Positions 8,724-24,066 of a stretch of 64,000 nt of DNA are shown here, in pieces (the stretch's first letter is position 1; each line of letters begins with the position of its first letter). A program made the translations under genes and the position numbers. Source of the DNA: Candidatus Hydrogenedentota bacterium. GTDB lineage: Bacteria; Hydrogenedentota; Hydrogenedentia; Hydrogenedentales; Hydrogenedentaceae. The DNA lies in contig JAOAHN010000058.1 in NCBI GenBank assembly GCA_026415215.1, forward strand, positions 62,001 to 126,000, written 5' to 3'. The notes below the pieces were generated by a model. That model did not search any database. It was not told the origin of the DNA and saw nothing but the letters and a program-made list of their open reading frames with translations.

Positions 8724-10403
8724 GTGGCAAAACTGTATCTCATAAGAGAAGGGAGCGGGGAGAAGATTCCAATTTCTTCTGCTATGGTTATTGGCCGGAC
8801 GAGGGAATGTAACTTGGTACTGGAAGATCCTGCTGTTTCACGGAGACATTTTGAGATTGTGCCAAGAGAAAATGGGATTTATCTAAAAGATTTAGGAAGT
8901 ACTAATGGGACTTATGTAAACGGTCATAGATTATCAGAAGGACTGCTTAGACCTGGAGATTGTATACAAGTTGGTAGGACTGTATTGAAATTTGAAGTGG
9001 AAGAAAACAATGCCCCATCGAAATTTGAAACGGATAGAAATCTTGACCACTCAGTAGTGGAGCGTTCCTTTTTAAGTTTGGAGTTACCCAAAAGACTTAA
9101 GAAATTAGAGAAGGATCTTCCCGTAGCTCTTGAGACTCTTTACTCTGTTCTTAATGATATAGCGGGAACTTTCGATATTTGTGAACTTCAGAATGGTATC
9201 CTTGAATCTACTTCCAAGATTTTGCCAATTTCTCACGGGGCCATTCTATTTACCAATTCAGAAAATGAGATTATTCCATGTAAGAAGTGTGGAAAGGTTC
9301 ATCAACTCCAAGGGAAAGATATTGCATTGTCTGAATCTTCTCAAGTTAAAGTAAGTAGTACACTCGTTTCTAAAGTAGTTAAAGCACGACAAAGTATTTT
9401 ATATAAGGATATAGTAGATGATGAAGATATGAGAAATGCGATTAGTATAATGTCTCTTAATGTGCGTTCAGCGATGTGTGTTCCCCTGAGGAGTAGAAAC
9501 AGAGTTTTGGGGTTAATATATTTCGATTGTTCAGAAGATAAGGGAAAATACACTGAGGCGGATTTGCTTTTGGTTTCAGCAATAGGAAACTCCGCAGGGT
9601 TGGCGTTTGAAAATGCGGAATTTCATGAGCAACTGATAGAAAAATACAGACTTGAGCAAGAAGTTAAGACCGCGGGAATAATTCAGACTGGGTTTCTATT
9701 TAATGATTGGAGTTCATTACCAGAAGCCTGTGATATATATGCGAAAACATTACCTGCTAAAATTGTGGGAGGCGATTTCTTCGATGTGGTAAAGATTTCT
9801 GATAATATGATTGCTTTTGCTGTGGGCGATGTGTCTGGTAAGGGGATACCCTCTGCTCTTGCAATGGTAAAAATACTAACTATGTTTAGAACTCAAGTAG
9901 TAAGACAGGAGTCGGAGTTAGATTTAATAAAAATATTGAATACCGACCTTGTTAGGAGTTCTCAAGAGGGCATGTTTTGCTCATTGGTGCTGGGAATATT
10001 AGACATAAATACCGGGGAGTTAAGATGTGTAAATGCAGGGCATCTTCCTGGGTTGTTGATTAGGGATGAGAAGTTAGATTTTATCTTTCATCCAAGTGGG
10101 CCACCCTTAGGAATTGTAGATAAAGATGTTTGGAAGGTGGAGAGAGAAGTACTCCACTCAAGTGATTGCCTTGTTTTGGTTACAGATGGAATTACAGAAG
10201 CGAGAAGAGGGGTAACTGGGAAAAACTTAAGTGATAGAGAATTTGGTTTTCATAGGTTGAGGAAGTGCATCGATAAACACAAGACTCAGACTCCTAAAGA
10301 AATTGTGTCTGCAGTTCTGGAAAATGTTAAGAAATATGCATCTCCTGAGCTTCCACATGATGACTGCACTATTTTTGTTTTGAAATGGAATGGGTATGCG
10401 TGA
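8724..10403 (+). CDS. FHA-GAF-PP2C phosphatase, RsbU/SpoIIE type
   Basis: A 559-residue cytosolic regulatory phosphatase expected to dephosphorylate a STAS-domain anti-sigma antagonist. Domains: FHA at about 1-95 (GRTRECNLVLEDPAVSRRH and DLGSTNGTYVNG, the phospho-threonine-binding loops), GAF at about 130-305 with NVRSAMCVPLRSRNRVLGLIYF, then PP2C at about 330-557. The PP2C metal ligands are seen in GGDFFDVV, GDVSGKGIP, TDGITEARRG and PHDDCTIF. The start is GTG with GGGAG seven bases upstream. The next gene, an RsbW-like kinase, begins inside its 3' end, and the STAS target follows, so the set forms a complete partner switch that runs straight into Mla genes. Confidence 0.92.
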   Translation: MAKLYLIREGSGEKIPISSAMVIGRTRECNLVLEDPAVSRRHFEIVPRENGIYLKDLGSTNGTYVNGHRLSEGLLRPGDCIQVGRTVLKFEVEENNAPSKFETDRNLDHSVVERSFLSLELPKRLKKLEKDLPVALETLYSVLNDIAGTFDICELQNGILESTSKILPISHGAILFTNSENEIIPCKKCGKVHQLQGKDIALSESSQVKVSSTLVSKVVKARQSILYKDIVDDEDMRNAISIMSLNVRSAMCVPLRSRNRVLGLIYFDCSEDKGKYTEADLLLVSAIGNSAGLAFENAEFHEQLIEKYRLEQEVKTAGIIQTGFLFNDWSSLPEACDIYAKTLPAKIVGGDFFDVVKISDNMIAFAVGDVSGKGIPSALAMVKILTMFRTQVVRQESELDLIKILNTDLVRSSQEGMFCSLVLGILDINTGELRCVNAGHLPGLLIRDEKLDFIFHPSGPPLGIVDKDVWKVEREVLHSSDCLVLVTDGITEARRGVTGKNLSDREFGFHRLRKCIDKHKTQTPKEIVSAVLENVKKYASPELPHDDCTIFVLKWNGYA

Positions 10404-10821
10404 AGATTTTATTTTGATATTTCGGTCTCACCCGAGACTGTTAAAGTCTGTGCGCTCTCTTATTAAATCATACCTCGAGACATTAAACTTTTCTGAAGAT
10501 AGAATTTCTGAAATAGTACTCGGATTAGACGAAGCCTGCACTAATTGTATACGCCATGCATACAAAGGGAGAAGAAGTGGTAGTATTCAGTTGTTTGTGA
10601 ATCTTGGAAACTCCTGGTTGGAGTTTGTACTGCGAGATTGTGGGGTATGTCCCCCTGCTAATTTTCTCTCCGCTACAGATACTCGGGAAATCAAATCCGG
10701 TGCACCAAAACCGCATGGTGTAGGATTAATAATATTAAAAAGAACTTTCGAGCAGGTGGAGTTCAAAGTAGACAGAGAAGGTAGAAATTGTTTAATTTTA
10801 AGAACCAAAAGGCCTAAATAG
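10390..10821 (+). CDS. RsbW/SpoIIAB-like serine kinase (HATPase_c_2)
   Basis: A 143-residue GHKL-fold ATPase. The N-box is GLDEACTNCIRHAY (Glu48, Asn52, His56), the G1 box is RDCGVCPP (Asp83), and the G2 box is HGVGLIILK (Gly110-Gly112). All ATP-binding features are intact, so it should be an active kinase for the neighbouring STAS protein. Start overlaps the phosphatase gene by 14 bases; another in-frame ATG at the third codon (MREDF) is possible. In known systems such kinases also sequester a sigma factor, but no matching sigma factor lies beside it. Here the target may instead be the Mla transporter through the STAS protein. Confidence 0.9.
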   Translation: MGMREDFILIFRSHPRLLKSVRSLIKSYLETLNFSEDRISEIVLGLDEACTNCIRHAYKGRRSGSIQLFVNLGNSWLEFVLRDCGVCPPANFLSATDTREIKSGAPKPHGVGLIILKRTFEQVEFKVDREGRNCLILRTKRPK

Positions 10822-10837
10822 TTTAGGAAATTGAACT

Positions 10838-11158
10838 ATGTCCATCGAAATAAAGATAAATAATGATGAGCAGGTTTGCAAAATCGAGGTTATTGGGCAA
10901 GTTGACCTTTATACATCTCCTGAATTAAGGAAGGCTATTCTCAGTGGTATGGATAAAGTTAACAAGAAAATGCTGGTAGAACTCTCCAATGTGGAGTATA
11001 TGGATTCTTCGGGAGTGGCTACCCTCGTAGAAGGATTAAGATCTGCGATGAAACATAAGAAAGAATTTTATTTAGTTTCTCCATCACCTGCGGTTAGGAA
11101 AGTTCTAAATCTTGCAAGACTCGAAAGTGTATTTACAATATTAGAAAGTGATTCATAA
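10838..11158 (+). CDS. STAS protein, RsbV/SpoIIAA-like; candidate MlaB equivalent
   Basis: A 106-residue single STAS domain. The strand-helix pattern begins IEVIGQVDLYTSPELRKAI and the phosphorylation loop is VEYMDSSGVATLVEG, with Asp56-Ser57-Ser58-Gly59 matching the phospho-acceptor site of SpoIIAA and RsbV. The protein ends with the usual ARLESVFTIL helix. Its stop codon shares one base with the mlaE start, so the two are translationally coupled. In Mla operons the STAS protein MlaB binds the ATPase MlaF and is needed for activity. Position and sequence therefore allow two roles: antagonist in the partner switch encoded just upstream, and subunit of the transporter encoded just downstream. 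Confidence 0.9.
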   Translation: MSIEIKINNDEQVCKIEVIGQVDLYTSPELRKAILSGMDKVNKKMLVELSNVEYMDSSGVATLVEGLRSAMKHKKEFYLVSPSPAVRKVLNLARLESVFTILESDS

Positions 11159-11952
11159 TGTTCACTCGTATCTTGGGTATTATAGGGAAAAAAACCATTT
11201 TGTGTATAGGCACGACTTTAGCTATCTGTGTATTAGTTTTTGAGACTTTCAATTGGCTTTTTGTGCAACCTCTTTTGGGGAGAGGGTTAAGATGGAAAGA
11301 TGCTATTGAAAATTTTTTAGAGTTCGGCTATAGGTCCTTGCCTATTGTAGGGTTAATATCTCTCTTAGTGGGGATAATAATGGGTATGCAGTCCGCCTAT
11401 ACTCTACAACAATGGGGGGCCACTATTTTTATTGCAAATCTTGTGGGAATATCTGCGTTGAGAGAATTGGCTCCATTGATGTCTGCGATACTAATAACTG
11501 GGAGGAGTGGTTCCGCTATTACTGCTGAAATAGGTACCATGAAAATCTCAGAGGAGATAGATGCACTTATAGTAATGGGACTGAGCCCATTTAAATACCT
11601 GGTAGTGCCAAAATTTATAGGGATGCTTTTTGCAGTTCCCTGTGTAACGGTGATTTCTATGGCTATTATGATAGCAGGGGGATTTATCGTAGGTGTGGGT
11701 ATCCTGGGTTTAGATTTCTGGGCTTATTTCGACCAAACTGCTAAAGCTCTGACTTCTAAAGACCTATTCTCAGGTATGGTGAAAAGCGTTTTTTTCGGTT
11801 TGACTATTTGCTGGGTGGGAATATATAAAGGATTTCAAGTCGAGGGTAGTGCTGAGAGTGTGGGCAGAATGACTACTTCCTCTGTAGTTACTTCAATCTT
11901 TACAATAATAATTGTTGACCTTATTTGGACTAGTTTATTCTACTTCAGTTAG
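11158..11952 (+). CDS. mlaE: MlaE-family lipid ABC transporter permease
   Basis: A 264-residue inner-membrane permease of the MlaE/TGD1 family, which moves phospholipid between inner membrane and the MCE protein. Typical segments: PIVGLISLLVGIIMGMQSAYTLQQWGA, ISALRELAPLMSAILITGRSGSAITAEIGTMKISEEIDALIVMG (the conserved coupling region contacting the ATPase) and P-K-F-I-G-M at the next helix. Five to six hydrophobic helices are visible. Its start overlaps the STAS stop codon by one base and mlaF follows two bases after its stop. Confidence 0.95.
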   Translation: MFTRILGIIGKKTILCIGTTLAICVLVFETFNWLFVQPLLGRGLRWKDAIENFLEFGYRSLPIVGLISLLVGIIMGMQSAYTLQQWGATIFIANLVGISALRELAPLMSAILITGRSGSAITAEIGTMKISEEIDALIVMGLSPFKYLVVPKFIGMLFAVPCVTVISMAIMIAGGFIVGVGILGLDFWAYFDQTAKALTSKDLFSGMVKSVFFGLTICWVGIYKGFQVEGSAESVGRMTTSSVVTSIFTIIIVDLIWTSLFYFS

Positions 11953-11954
11953 AA

Positions 11955-12755
11955 ATGAGTGGCTTTGAAGAAAATATTATTGAAGTAAGAAATTTAGTGA
12001 TGGAATACAATGGCAATCATGTACTCGATAACATCACTTTTAATGTAAAGAAGGGGGAGATTTTTGTAATACTTGGTCGGAGTGGGTGTGGTAAGAGTAC
12101 ATTGCTTCGAGCTATGGTTGGGTTGTTAACTCCCACATCTGGTGAAATTTATATTTTTGGGAAAAATATATTGGCTCTCGGGCATAAAGACCAGGTTGAA
12201 TTTAGAAAGAAAATAGGAATGTGTTTTCAGAATTCTGCCCTTTTTAATTCAATGACGGTAGGGGAAAATGTTGCTTTGCCAATAAGGGAGCATACGAAGC
12301 TGGCTGATTCAACTATAGAGATAATGGCACGGATTAAACTTGAGTTAGTTGGTTTAGGAGGTTGTTATGATATGTATCCGTCTCAGTTAAGTGGTGGTAT
12401 GAAGAAAAGGGCAGGAATAGCAAGGGCAATGGCATTGGACCCGGAGATAATTTTTTATGATGAACCTTCCTCAGGATTAGACCCAGTGGTATCTGCCGGT
12501 TTAGACCAGCTTATACGAAAGATGCAAAATACATTTGGTTTAACGAGTGTAGTAGTTACTCACGATCTTGATAGTGTTAAGATTATTGCAGACAGAATAT
12601 GTGTTCTTCATAATGCTAAAATTCTTGCGATTGGAACTCTTGAAGAACTTGAGAAAAGTGAGGATCCATATATCAGGCAGTTCTTTACAAGAACGCCTGA
12701 TCCCGAAGAAACCTATTCTTCCTCTTTAATTTTGGAAGATAAAGGTAGTATGTAA
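11955..12755 (+). CDS. mlaF: MlaF-family lipid transporter ATP-binding protein
   Basis: A 266-residue ABC ATPase. Walker A GRSGCGKST, Q-loop CFQNSALFNSMTVGENVALP, signature LSGGMKKRAGIARAMA, Walker B IIFYDEPSSGLDP and switch histidine VVTHD are all present. The LSGGM(K/R)KR signature and the SALFNSMTV Q-loop are typical of MlaF rather than of other importers. The C-terminal tail after residue 235 (SEDPYIRQFF) is of the kind that contacts the neighbouring MlaF protomer and MlaB. It powers transport with the upstream permease. Confidence 0.95.
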   Translation: MSGFEENIIEVRNLVMEYNGNHVLDNITFNVKKGEIFVILGRSGCGKSTLLRAMVGLLTPTSGEIYIFGKNILALGHKDQVEFRKKIGMCFQNSALFNSMTVGENVALPIREHTKLADSTIEIMARIKLELVGLGGCYDMYPSQLSGGMKKRAGIARAMALDPEIIFYDEPSSGLDPVVSAGLDQLIRKMQNTFGLTSVVVTHDLDSVKIIADRICVLHNAKILAIGTLEELEKSEDPYIRQFFTRTPDPEETYSSSLILEDKGSM

Positions 12756-12787
12756 TAATAAAAACTTCATCTCGTTTGGGTTTGGCT

Positions 12788-13828
12788 ATGAATGTTAGTA
12801 AGTCAAAAGAGTTTGCAAAGAAGGAAATAATAGCGGGGCTTTTTGTGCTATTAAGTCTGGGAATATTAATTGCTTTTGTATTTATAGTGAGAGGATATAG
12901 GCCCTATACAGGGGAAAAGGTCTACTATGCAAAGTTTAAAAATACACTCGGATTAGACAAAGGAGCCGATGTCAGATACGGTGGCTTAAAGGTTGGAAAG
13001 GTAGTAGATATATTTCAAGATAAAGAAGATCCTACACTCGTTTGTGTTAAAATTGCGGTTTCTAAGGATGTTCAATTGAATCAGAAATGTGTAGCATCTG
13101 TTGAACAAGTTTCCCTTACATCTGCACGCCATTTAGAGATATCTACAGGAGAGCTTGATGCCCCTAAAATCCCTGAGAATTCATACATACCTTCGATAAA
13201 TAAGAGTGGGGCATTAGTTGAACTCCCTGATTTTTCATCCACTGTAGCTAAGGTAGAACAGTTAATAGAGGACCTAAGGGATTTCTTAGGAATGGAAGTT
13301 GTAAGAGCGGAGGAAAAAAATGGAAAAACCTTTCCTCGCGTAGCTCAACTTACGGAAGATATTAAACGCACTATGGAAAAGGGTTCTGAGTTTATAGGAG
13401 AGCTAAATGATTTACTAAAAGAGCAAAAGCCCCAAATCAATGAGGTAGTAGTCGAACTTAATCAAATTGAGAAGGAGCTTAAGAAAGTATTAGAGCGAGC
13501 CAATACTATATTGACTGAAAGCAGGGAACCTCTCAAAGAAACATTAGTTAATGTGAAAGAATTAGCATTGAGATTACAAAAAGTGGTTGAACAGGGATCT
13601 AATAGTCTCGAAGTAATACTTAAGAATCTTGAAAAATTAACTACCAATATAGATAGCTTGTCTGGTGAAGCTAAAATTTGGTTTAGTAAAAATAGGCGTA
13701 CTATAGAAGATATTGTGGTTGATTTGAAGGACACTATCCGTAATTTGAGAATTTTGTCTCAGATTCTCGCGGAACAACCTCAGTCTCTCCTAACAGGAAA
13801 GCCTATTTCAGGTTCAGGGAGAAAGTAA
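12788..13828 (+). CDS. mlaD: MlaD-family MCE-domain substrate-binding protein
   Basis: A 346-residue periplasm-facing protein with one N-terminal membrane anchor (IIAGLFVLLSLGILIAFVFIV) and an MCE domain at about 35-120 with YYAKFKNTLGLDKGADVRYGGLKVGKV. The remainder to about 330 is heptad-rich, Lys/Glu/Leu helical sequence, suggesting a coiled coil longer than in E. coli MlaD (183 residues) and closer to MCE proteins with helical needles. MCE proteins form hexameric lipid channels. The ATG with GGG seven bases upstream is preferred over a TTG four codons earlier. Confidence 0.93.
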   Translation: MNVSKSKEFAKKEIIAGLFVLLSLGILIAFVFIVRGYRPYTGEKVYYAKFKNTLGLDKGADVRYGGLKVGKVVDIFQDKEDPTLVCVKIAVSKDVQLNQKCVASVEQVSLTSARHLEISTGELDAPKIPENSYIPSINKSGALVELPDFSSTVAKVEQLIEDLRDFLGMEVVRAEEKNGKTFPRVAQLTEDIKRTMEKGSEFIGELNDLLKEQKPQINEVVVELNQIEKELKKVLERANTILTESREPLKETLVNVKELALRLQKVVEQGSNSLEVILKNLEKLTTNIDSLSGEAKIWFSKNRRTIEDIVVDLKDTIRNLRILSQILAEQPQSLLTGKPISGSGRK

Positions 13829-13831
13829 TAT

Positions 13832-14455
13832 ATGAGAAAATGTCGTTTTTTAAAAAGTTTTTTTGCGAAGTTTTTTTGCGTGTGTTTACTTTTATTGTTT
13901 TATGGATGTATTACATCCTCAAAAGTGAGCTACTTTACATTGGATGTTAAACAGCCCCTGATCGAATCAAATGGCGAGAAAAATATTTGTCTTGAAGTGG
14001 TTAGTATTAAACTTTCAGAACCTTTGAAACGAAAGGAGATAATGTTTAGAAGTAGTTCAGTTGAGATTGGTTATTATTCCGAATATCTTTGGGCATCAAG
14101 TATTGAGGAGATGGTTGCCCTGAGATTTAATAAGTATTTTTCCTGCCCAGGTGTGAAAATTAAACCTGATTACTATTTGCATATTGACCTTTTAAATTTC
14201 GAGCAAGAGGTATCACCTGAAGGCTCTCGAGCTATTGTATCTATGAAAATAGAAATATTAAATCCTGAAGATATGAAATTGATTTCGCAAAGGTATTATA
14301 CGGAGGTAGAAGTTATAAATTCCGAAGATATTGTAGAAACTGTCACTAAACTATCTCGTGCTACTGATAAAATTATAATTAGAGTTGAGAAAGATATCTC
14401 TGAATATGTAAGGGGATCTTCACAAGTTGGAGGTAGAACTGATGCCCCGCATTGA
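13832..14455 (+). CDS. ABC-type transport auxiliary lipoprotein, PqiC-like
   Basis: A 207-residue outer-membrane-type lipoprotein. The signal peptide ends at the lipobox LLFYGC (Cys near residue 28), followed by SSKVSYFTLDV, the YFTL motif at the mature N-terminus of the ABC_trans_aux (DUF330/PqiC) family. The later IEEMVALRFNKYF and DYYLHIDLLNFEQEVSPEGSRAIVSMKIEILN match the family's DSLxxxL and xxLxVxIxxF strands. These proteins cap MCE complexes at the outer membrane, supporting a diderm envelope. GGGAG in the 3' end of mlaD serves as ribosome-binding site. Confidence 0.87.
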   Translation: MRKCRFLKSFFAKFFCVCLLLLFYGCITSSKVSYFTLDVKQPLIESNGEKNICLEVVSIKLSEPLKRKEIMFRSSSVEIGYYSEYLWASSIEEMVALRFNKYFSCPGVKIKPDYYLHIDLLNFEQEVSPEGSRAIVSMKIEILNPEDMKLISQRYYTEVEVINSEDIVETVTKLSRATDKIIIRVEKDISEYVRGSSQVGGRTDAPH

Positions 14456-15239
14456 TATTGATGATTTTTTGACCGATTATGAGCGCGCAGTTTGTTATTT
14501 CACTTTGCCGAAAATTTCATACACTGTTAGACCAATAGTTGTATTTTTTTACACACTTATTTTACTCGTATCTTTCTCTCTTCTTTTTGTAGGTTTTTTG
14601 TATGAAAGTTTGCTACTTGTAAATCTGGGAGGGTTCTTATCATTTGGGGTAGCTTTAGTAGGTGTTTCTTTGTTTGTAGGGAGAACAATTGTAAACGAGT
14701 ATAAATGGAGAAAATACCTGAGATACTCAAGTATTTCGCCCAACAAAGTTGAAATAGATTTGCCAGACCCGTTTCAAAATCATGTCTTATTTTCTATCCC
14801 TCTTGATAAAAGGTTTAGTAATCTCTTTCCTTGTATAGATAGGAATGGAGAAGTTCTATTTTTCATAGAGGAGATTGAAAAGGGGAGAAAGTGGGTAATT
14901 AAAAATCCCCAGGATGTTGAAGTGGCGAGGGTAGAAGGAAAACCAAGTTTATTTAGTTTTGTTATCTCATACAAGACTCCCTTTGTCATGAGAGTTTACG
15001 AGGGGACCAATTTATCCTATTTCATAAAGCCTAAATGCTCTATTTTTAATGTCGGTTTTGTGGTTTTGGATAAGAAACAAACACCTAATCTTAATTACAC
15101 TATTTCTGACACCGCAGTGTTTGTTAATAAAGAATTAGTTGGTAGATTTTATCAGCTTCGCCGATATTTTTATCTCGACATTCAAGAACAACATTTCAAC
15201 CTCGGCTTACTCGCTTTTTTCATTTATTTTAGTGGATGA
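14442..15239 (+). CDS. Membrane protein of unknown function, possible scramblase/LURP-like fold
   Basis: A 265-residue protein ending the Mla operon. Two transmembrane helices lie at about residues 33-53 and 59-80 (VVFFYTLILLVSFSLLFVGF, LLLVNLGGFLSFGVALVGVSLF), then a soluble domain of about 180 residues rich in beta strands: EVLFFIEEIEKGRKWVIKNPQDVEVARVEGKP, then FFI-less strands and a final LVGRFYQLRRYFYLDI. The repeated pattern of a strand, a polar turn and 'DVEVARV' or 'ELVGRF' resembles the tubby-like barrel of phospholipid scramblase/LURP-one proteins, which would make sense beside a lipid transporter. This is only pattern resemblance. The ATG after GGAGG is chosen. It overlaps the lipoprotein gene by 14 bases. 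Confidence 0.6.
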   Translation: MPRIDIDDFLTDYERAVCYFTLPKISYTVRPIVVFFYTLILLVSFSLLFVGFLYESLLLVNLGGFLSFGVALVGVSLFVGRTIVNEYKWRKYLRYSSISPNKVEIDLPDPFQNHVLFSIPLDKRFSNLFPCIDRNGEVLFFIEEIEKGRKWVIKNPQDVEVARVEGKPSLFSFVISYKTPFVMRVYEGTNLSYFIKPKCSIFNVGFVVLDKKQTPNLNYTISDTAVFVNKELVGRFYQLRRYFYLDIQEQHFNLGLLAFFIYFSG

Positions 15240-23208: not shown

Positions 23209-24066
23209 GTGGCAGATAAGGATTTTTTACAAAGCAATGTCCTGTTGGAGAAAGGGTTGGTAGCTTATATCTCTCAGATATCCAAGATTCCCCTGCTTGC
23301 ACCTGAAGAGGAAAAAAGGTTAGCTCAGCGAATAAAAAGGGGAGATGGTAAAGCCCGAAAGAAGTTGATACTCTCTAATCTAAGGTTAGTGGTAAGTATT
23401 GCGAAGAGATATATGAATTATGGCTTGCCACTATTGGATTTAATAGAAGAAGGTAATATAGGTCTAATGAAAGCAGTGGATACTTTTGATCCATCTCGTG
23501 GAACAAGATTTTCTACATATGCTACTTGGTGGATTAGGCAGACTATTACCCGTGCTCTTTCTAACCAAAGTAGAACAGTTAGGATACCAGTATATATGAG
23601 CGAAACCCTTCTGAGGTACAAAAAGGCGGTGGAGGAATTCTATGTTAGAACAGGACATCAGCCTTCAGTTAAGGAGATTGCTGAAGAACTCGGAGTAACA
23701 GAGCATGAAGCAGAGCAATTGAAAGAATACTTGGAATGTATGGTTGCAGTAGACTTTGCTCAATATGTTCCGGAAGCAGAAGACAGCATGTATTTGAATA
23801 AATCTGAGTCCCATCTAAAATCAGATAGTTTTGTAGAAGGGTTAGAGAAAGAGCAAGATTTGGAGTTTTTACTGAGTCTTCTTCCAGAGAGAGATGCTAA
23901 TGTATTAAAATATCGGTACGGTCTTATGGACGGCAAGCCACATACATTGGTAGAAACAGGTAGGAAATTTAATCTCACAAGAGAGAGAGTTAGACAAATC
24001 GAAAGAAATGCAATTAACTTTTTGAGGAATTATGTAGAGTCCCATAAAGATGATTTTATTCCATGA
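23209..24066 (+). CDS. Primary-type (sigma-70 group 1/2) RNA polymerase sigma factor
   Basis: A 285-residue sigma factor without a region 1.1. Region 1.2-2.1 starts YISQISKIPLLAPEEEKRLAQRIKRGD. Region 2.3-2.4 has FSTYATWWIRQTITRAL, the -10 recognition helix. Region 3 has RIPVYMSETLLRYKKA, and region 4.2 has TLVETGRKFNLTRERVRQIERNAINFLRN. This short four-region layout matches RpoS/SigA-like group 2 factors; in some small-genome lineages it is the principal factor. Start codon is GTG. It is 29 bases from apt and may be co-transcribed with it. Confidence 0.88.
   Translation: MADKDFLQSNVLLEKGLVAYISQISKIPLLAPEEEKRLAQRIKRGDGKARKKLILSNLRLVVSIAKRYMNYGLPLLDLIEEGNIGLMKAVDTFDPSRGTRFSTYATWWIRQTITRALSNQSRTVRIPVYMSETLLRYKKAVEEFYVRTGHQPSVKEIAEELGVTEHEAEQLKEYLECMVAVDFAQYVPEAEDSMYLNKSESHLKSDSFVEGLEKEQDLEFLLSLLPERDANVLKYRYGLMDGKPHTLVETGRKFNLTRERVRQIERNAINFLRNYVESHKDDFIP

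Follow-up and report, generated by a model that had tools for sequence, protein, structure and literature searches.

In a 64,000-nucleotide stretch of a Candidatus Hydrogenedentota genome (hereafter the window; positions 62001-126000 of contig C57 in a 3.33 Mb draft genome that is closest to Candidatus Hydrogenedens, with 70% STAS identity), the genes for a sensor phosphatase, an RsbW/SpoIIAB-like serine kinase and a STAS protein run directly into the genes of an Mla-type lipid transporter. The eight open reading frames (ORFs) occupy 8724-15239, all on the + strand, and form a tight operon that encodes, in this order, the phosphatase, the kinase, the STAS protein, MlaE, MlaF, MlaD, a lipoprotein and a membrane protein. 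The order is conserved in many phyla, the catalytic and acceptor residues are intact and MlaF carries a docking motif of the MlaB type. We propose that the STAS protein is an MlaB-like subunit and that its reversible phosphorylation at Ser57 probably switches the MlaFED-type transporter. An earlier analysis made from the DNA letters alone (the sequence-only reading) had listed these genes in this order, which the ORFs and their Pfam families bear out. It had also suggested the STAS protein as a part of the transporter, a suggestion favoured here by the MlaF tail motif, the invariant residues on the STAS helices, the inheritance of the operon as a whole and the swappable sensors. No description of this gene order was found in the open-licence literature searched; the module combines partner-switch components and a transporter that are each of a familiar type.

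Gene order, catalytic residues and recurrence

The sensor phosphatase (8724-10403, + strand, 559 aa, GTG start) is composed, according to Pfam, of an FHA domain (~8787-8975; 5e-21), a GAF domain (~9183-9611; GAF_2, 4e-12) and a SpoIIE/PP2C domain (~9801-10388; SpoIIE, 1.5e-44), with the motifs GGDFFD, GDVSGKG, TDGITEA and HDDCT all present. Its gene overlaps that of the kinase (10390-10821, + strand, 143 aa; Pfam HATPase_c_2, 1.2e-21), which matches the NCBIfam models of RsbW (2e-9) and SpoIIAB (3e-9), in both cases under the cut-off. The ATP boxes of the kinase, already described as intact in the sequence-only reading, are indeed all there (N box with E48 at 10531-10533 and N52 at 10543-10545, G1 box D83-x-G85, and G2 box G110-x-G112 within PHGVGL), and the catalytic residues are invariant in 24 relatives.

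The STAS protein (10838-11158, + strand, 106 aa; Pfam STAS, 2e-17; NCBIfam ant_ant_sig over the cut-off) carries the expected DSSG site. Between the two serines that had been put forward, Ser57 (11006-11008), the first Ser of DSSG, is the one that aligns with SpoIIAA Ser58 and MlaB Thr52, while Ser58 does not; in the AF2 model (pLDDT 94.9) this predicted phospho-acceptor stands at the start of helix 2 (57-72). Three features of a partner switch, namely a GHKL-type kinase, a STAS serine at the start of helix 2 and a PP2C/SpoIIE phosphatase with a sensor domain, are found together, and a phosphorylation-dependent exchange of partners is predicted.

The STAS stop codon TAA (11156-11158) and the mlaE ATG (11158) have one A in common, as had been noticed before. 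The permease gene mlaE (11158-11952, + strand, 264 aa, without a fused STAS; Pfam MlaE, 2.3e-74; TIGR00056 over the cut-off) is followed after 2 nt by the ATPase gene mlaF (11955-12755, + strand, 266 aa), whose best match in the Protein Data Bank (PDB) is A. baumannii MlaF (8.6e-65), and then by mlaD (12776-13828, + strand, 350 aa; Pfam MlaD, 2.5e-14; listed with a TTG start, with an ATG at 12788), which encodes a protein with an MCE domain. The three parts required of an Mla/MCE transporter are therefore present according to Pfam, PDB and NCBIfam matches, and the operon is, by its families, that of an MlaFED-type ABC lipid transporter with predicted transport activity.

The arrangement recurs within the phylum and far beyond it, which excludes a chance arrangement. 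Across 60 relatives, several kb were read around each of 36 loci that encode a short (unfused) MlaE, and in 33 of these Hydrogenedentota loci a STAS gene lies directly upstream of mlaE, nearly always together with kinase and phosphatase genes. When 84,980 species genomes were scanned with a STAS alignment, 278 relatives came up, and the loci of the best 80 were inspected. Kinase, STAS and mlaE genes stand together in 77 of the 80, and the phosphatase is also present in the sequence stretch examined for 67 of those 77; the gap between STAS and mlaE is at most 60 nt in 69/78 loci, with a frequent 4-base overlap. Motifs around DSSG or GEVDLYSSP were a requirement of the scan; these residues are thus selected by the method, and the invariance of DSSG (81/81 module STAS proteins) is partly imposed. 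Judging from record titles, which can be wrong for metagenome bins, roughly ten named phyla carry the arrangement, the carriers being Hydrogenedentota, Acidobacteria (Thermoanaerobaculales, Terriglobia), KSB1, Calditrichota, Glassbacteria, Gemmatimonadales, Methylomirabilota, Nitrospinae, Phycisphaerales, Rhodocyclaceae/Accumulibacter and Thiohalobacter. Of 82 genomes from the phylum to which the KSB1 genome G074 belongs, 60 have a module-type STAS, normally one each. One of the two conditions under which the sequence-only reading would have been given up was an order confined to a single genome together with a STAS protein that models poorly on MlaF, and the first part of this condition does not hold.

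While the core stays, the sensor half of the phosphatase is exchangeable: FHA-GAF in Hydrogenedentota and Thermoanaerobaculales, GAF alone in KSB1, Glassbacteria, Methylomirabilota and Propionivibrio, and HDOD in Thiohalobacter (one betaproteobacterium has a phosphatase-kinase fusion). Additionally, each of the six genes of Thermoanaerobaculales has far more identity with its Hydrogenedentota counterpart than with that of KSB1 (e.g., 63% vs 50% for MlaE and 45% vs 29% for PP2C), and this common identity pattern suggests that the gene set moved as one unit between Acidobacteriota and Hydrogenedentota. Distance-matrix correlations between the module genes are high (0.68-0.85), yet they also track species descent, and therefore only the cross-phylum pattern is used here.

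Statements on the window's own genome rest on profile searches. In these, the module supplies the sole free-standing DSSG STAS protein, and no other free-standing RsbW-type kinase scores over the cut-off. The earlier remark that there is no separate mlaB thus holds for free-standing MlaB-like DSSG proteins, with the addition that a second mla operon (contig C42) encodes a STAS domain fused to MlaE. The remaining candidates are poor alternatives: the STAS protein of contig C61 has no DSSG, another kinase-like protein is joined to Fe-S domains, and a further PP2C is a response regulator that itself ends in a STAS-like part. The C61 protein (locus L057, 1798-2151) has IDVLS at this site and is encoded between MraZ-like and rsmH-like genes.

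Three loci (L022, L030 and L033) that had been taken as losses of the module were rejected as such, since they belong to a separate MlaE group without any STAS. In another locus (L099, 9935-15367) the genes for STAS, MlaE and MlaF are followed by that of a 1131-aa MCE protein; DSSG and Glu65 (see below) are kept, and no module kinase was found in the 10 kb upstream. A further locus (L021, 7769-8461, from the same genome as L085) has kinase and STAS in one linkerless reading frame of 230 aa. We set this fusion aside as evidence, given that it is a single case without a linker, in which a strand is lost, and that it may be an artefact of assembly or deletion.

Signs of a docking partner on the STAS protein and MlaF

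The module STAS proteins were compared, at positions outside the scan motif, with 35 non-module STAS proteins from the genomes that encode them. Three residues separate the two sets: Glu65 (100% vs 6%; 11030-11032 in the window), Thr62 (94% vs 6%) and Val89 (98% vs 6%). Together with Ser27, Pro28 and Arg31, they sit on helices 1-3 of the model (27-40, 57-72 and 84-92), and it is through the same three helices that E. coli MlaB touches MlaF (PMC7367683). The other STAS proteins in 30 module genomes score far lower than the module STAS, and no MlaE was found beside non-module STAS genes in the stretches examined, the two exceptions (L191 and L192) being module STAS loci themselves.

On the side of the ATPase, the C-terminal extension of E. 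coli MlaF sends Tyr261, Leu265 and Leu266 into a groove between MlaF and MlaB. The MlaF tail in the window, Y254-SSS-L258-I259 (12714-12731), matches this spacing. The tail of module MlaF proteins is ~25 residues long, with Y/F-x3-L in 63/73 and, in most of the others, another hydrophobic residue in place of the Tyr. In the same phylum, the MlaF proteins of the paralogous operons with a fused STAS have shorter tails and never the motif (0/20), and neither do those of two mla loci without any STAS (0/2). By this distribution, the docking tail accompanies a free STAS partner, and we regard it as the strongest sequence evidence for a probable STAS-MlaF binding of the MlaB kind.

By family, the STAS protein is closer to the anti-anti-sigma factors. 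Its sequence matches are to TM1442 (3e-23), RsbV (1e-14) and SpoIIAA (4e-12), with MlaB only a distant match (E 0.04, PDB); its best structural match is 1vc1, with a TM-score to MlaB of ~0.75. The MlaB family model NF033618 gives 20.8 bits against a cut-off of 90, so that the protein is not an MlaB orthologue by sequence, while by position it has what an MlaB would have, a place in an mla operon whose MlaF has the C-terminal extension. Our claim is accordingly one of function, not of membership: the protein would work like MlaB and be phospho-controlled like SpoIIAA. Its length (the model has no C-terminal helix) was considered as an MlaB-like trait and rejected as proof, since TM1442 and RsbV are similarly long.

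Proposed switch and competing explanations

In the proposed mechanism, the unphosphorylated STAS protein would dock on MlaF as E. coli MlaB does, with the face formed by its three helices against the helical subdomain and C-terminal extension of the ATPase, which would thereby stay assembled on MlaE and active. Phosphorylation of Ser57, at the centre of the docking face, by the RsbW-like kinase would release MlaF and turn transport off; the kinase may also hold the STAS protein in its own ADP form. The PP2C phosphatase, steered by whatever signal its FHA/GAF half would sense (GAF only or HDOD elsewhere), would remove the phosphate and turn transport on. The sign that we favour, with the unphosphorylated form as the active one, is chosen because MlaB is needed for the association of MlaF with MlaE and because the phosphomimic Thr52Glu lowers MlaF binding (PMC7367683). 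The reverse sign is possible for the module STAS, as in a BtrV-like case where it is the phosphorylated form that binds the partner (PMC8256260).

Several observations weigh against this switch or call for caution. In E. coli, deletion of the MlaF tail destroys function and leaves MlaF-MlaB binding, and for this reason the tail motif should be read as a marker of the arrangement, not as proof of contact. The E. coli MlaB mutant T52A abolishes ATPase activity although MlaB is still bound (PMC7367683, PMC5016091), so the acceptor site may work by some means other than mere release and may join in activation. The kinship of the STAS protein with RsbV, SpoIIAA and TM1442 means that binding to MlaF would not be knowledge inherited from a family. 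One Hydrogenedentota genome (L242, 1640-5190) has a module-type phosphatase-kinase-STAS set without mla genes, followed by a gene for a PilZ-domain protein, and in two others (L240 and L241) the STAS gene adjoins that of the terminal membrane protein, while the genes of the kinase, the phosphatase and the transporter are all missing. Finally, the statement in the sequence-only reading that no partner sigma factor is nearby has to be corrected, as the window contains, at 23209-24066 and ~8 kb downstream of the operon, a gene of the sigma-70 family, group 2 (RpoS/RpoD-like).

This last gene supports an explanation that we consider unlikely, a partner switch of the classical kind whose target lies elsewhere, in which the kinase sequesters a sigma factor (e.g., that encoded at 23209-24066), the STAS protein releases it, and the mla genes are only transcribed alongside or belong to an envelope-stress regulon. 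The resemblance of the STAS protein to RsbV/SpoIIAA and of the kinase to RsbW/SpoIIAB would fit such a switch, the neighbourhood of the sigma gene is shared by a congeneric species (L245), and a partner switch of Shewanella is known to act on RpoS. A plain switch of this kind was considered and retained as an alternative only: the sole sigma gene of the window is RpoS/RpoD-like and the other small sigma factor of the genome (contig C145) FliA/WhiG-like, next to RpoD (contig C144, assigned by position and length), with no SigB/F/G-type sigma over the cut-off in the profile search. The sigma factor that is classically encoded with such a set as its output is absent here, and known non-sigma partner switches likewise lack one. 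No sigma gene was found in the 1.13 Mb of flanks of 80 loci by a query that did find sigma genes elsewhere. In two genomes of the phylum that includes KSB1, a FliA-type sigma gene does lie near a separate set of kinase and STAS genes, whose STAS protein lacks Glu65. Moreover, a remote sigma target gives no role to the MlaF tail motif or to the constant position directly ahead of mlaE across many phyla.

A reversal of roles, in which the kinase is the direct inhibitor, bound to MlaF or MlaE, and the unphosphorylated STAS protein only draws it off, seems to us improbable. RsbW and SpoIIAB bind sigma factors in this manner, and the conservation of the operon fits the idea. It leaves unexplained, however, both the MlaB-type tail of the module MlaF and the extra invariant residues on the STAS helices, and the E. 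coli precedent is that of a STAS protein on the ATPase. That the STAS protein mainly controls the terminal membrane protein, with the transporter a mere neighbour, is very improbable, since the two genomes in which only these two genes are left side by side stand against the loci beyond the Hydrogenedentota group, in which this protein was not found, the STAS-mlaE pair in all listed phyla and the pattern of the MlaF extension.

Phosphorylation control of the transporter through its STAS subunit, the reading that we prefer, can be widened, in a tentative and rather doubtful form, to an ancient and widespread post-translational switch in which the STAS protein is a hub that changes partners among the kinase, MlaF and (in Hydrogenedentota) the terminal, membrane-anchored protein with the Tubby/LURP-one fold, with interchangeable cytoplasmic sensors gating envelope lipid traffic. 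If true, this would supply the type of kinase and phosphatase that has been proposed, and not found, for MlaB-type STAS subunits.

Known systems compared and the distal genes

The MlaFEDB systems of E. coli, Pseudomonas and Acinetobacter share with the module the relatives of MlaE, MlaF and MlaD, a STAS protein in the operon, the Tyr-x3-Leu tail of MlaF and an acceptor aligned with MlaB Thr52. They differ in that the module has an RsbV-like DSSG STAS protein, a kinase and a phosphatase in the operon, and an ABC_trans_aux lipoprotein; no MlaC was found in the module operon. Phosphorylation of Thr52 has been proposed to regulate the Mla transporter, no kinase for MlaB being known in E. coli (PMC5016091, PMC7367683), and the regulation of active MlaB has been called an open question (PMC7367683). 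A conserved system that encodes a candidate kinase, phosphatase and acceptor beside the transporter makes this idea directly testable. The STAS-MlaE fusion of contig C42 also ties a STAS domain physically to the permease; it differs in its DTLG site (DS/DT/DA-x-G in relatives) and in an MlaF without the docking tail, and no module kinase or phosphatase was found near it in the 14 kb examined.

With the Bacillus switches SpoIIAA-SpoIIAB-SpoIIE and RsbV-RsbW-RsbU, the module has in common the kinase, STAS and PP2C families, DSSG and a sensor half on the phosphatase, while it lacks a sigma factor in the operon, has a transporter ATPase as its predicted output and carries extra STAS residues (Glu65 and others). 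A small regulated protein that itself acts on the target is known from two partner-switch-like systems, with SypA (and SypE) in Vibrio fischeri (PMC8256260) and with SiaC-SiaD of the SiaABCD system in Pseudomonas aeruginosa (PMC8457831). The target is a biofilm factor of unknown identity in the one and a diguanylate cyclase in the other, not a transporter, which sets both apart from the module. If the proposed switch is true, partner switching would extend past transcription to the gating of ABC transporters, and the STAS-ABC pairing would be a general regulatory site.

The last two genes of the operon encode a lipoprotein of the PqiC/YmbA type (13832-14455, + strand, 207 aa; Pfam ABC_trans_aux, 9.4e-10) and the terminal membrane protein (14442-15239, + strand, 265 aa from the ATG at 14442, with a conserved start column and no Pfam match), which ends the operon in many Hydrogenedentota loci. 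The AF2 model of the latter (pLDDT 83.8) has two long N-terminal helices (predicted transmembrane), a 12-strand domain and a C-terminal helix. Foldseek relates the model to the LURP-one-related protein 1zxu (E 6e-5, probability 1.00) and to TULP1 (3c5n, probability 0.99), with modest TM-scores, so the domain looks like a LURP-one/Tubby/scramblase-type fold. The LURP-one/Tubby superfamily is known for lipid binding, and the terminal protein may be another partner of the STAS protein. In two genomes of one genus, the ABC_trans_aux lipoprotein is apparently a tandem triplicate of ~550 aa (L028, 9638-11278; L036, 3156-4808).

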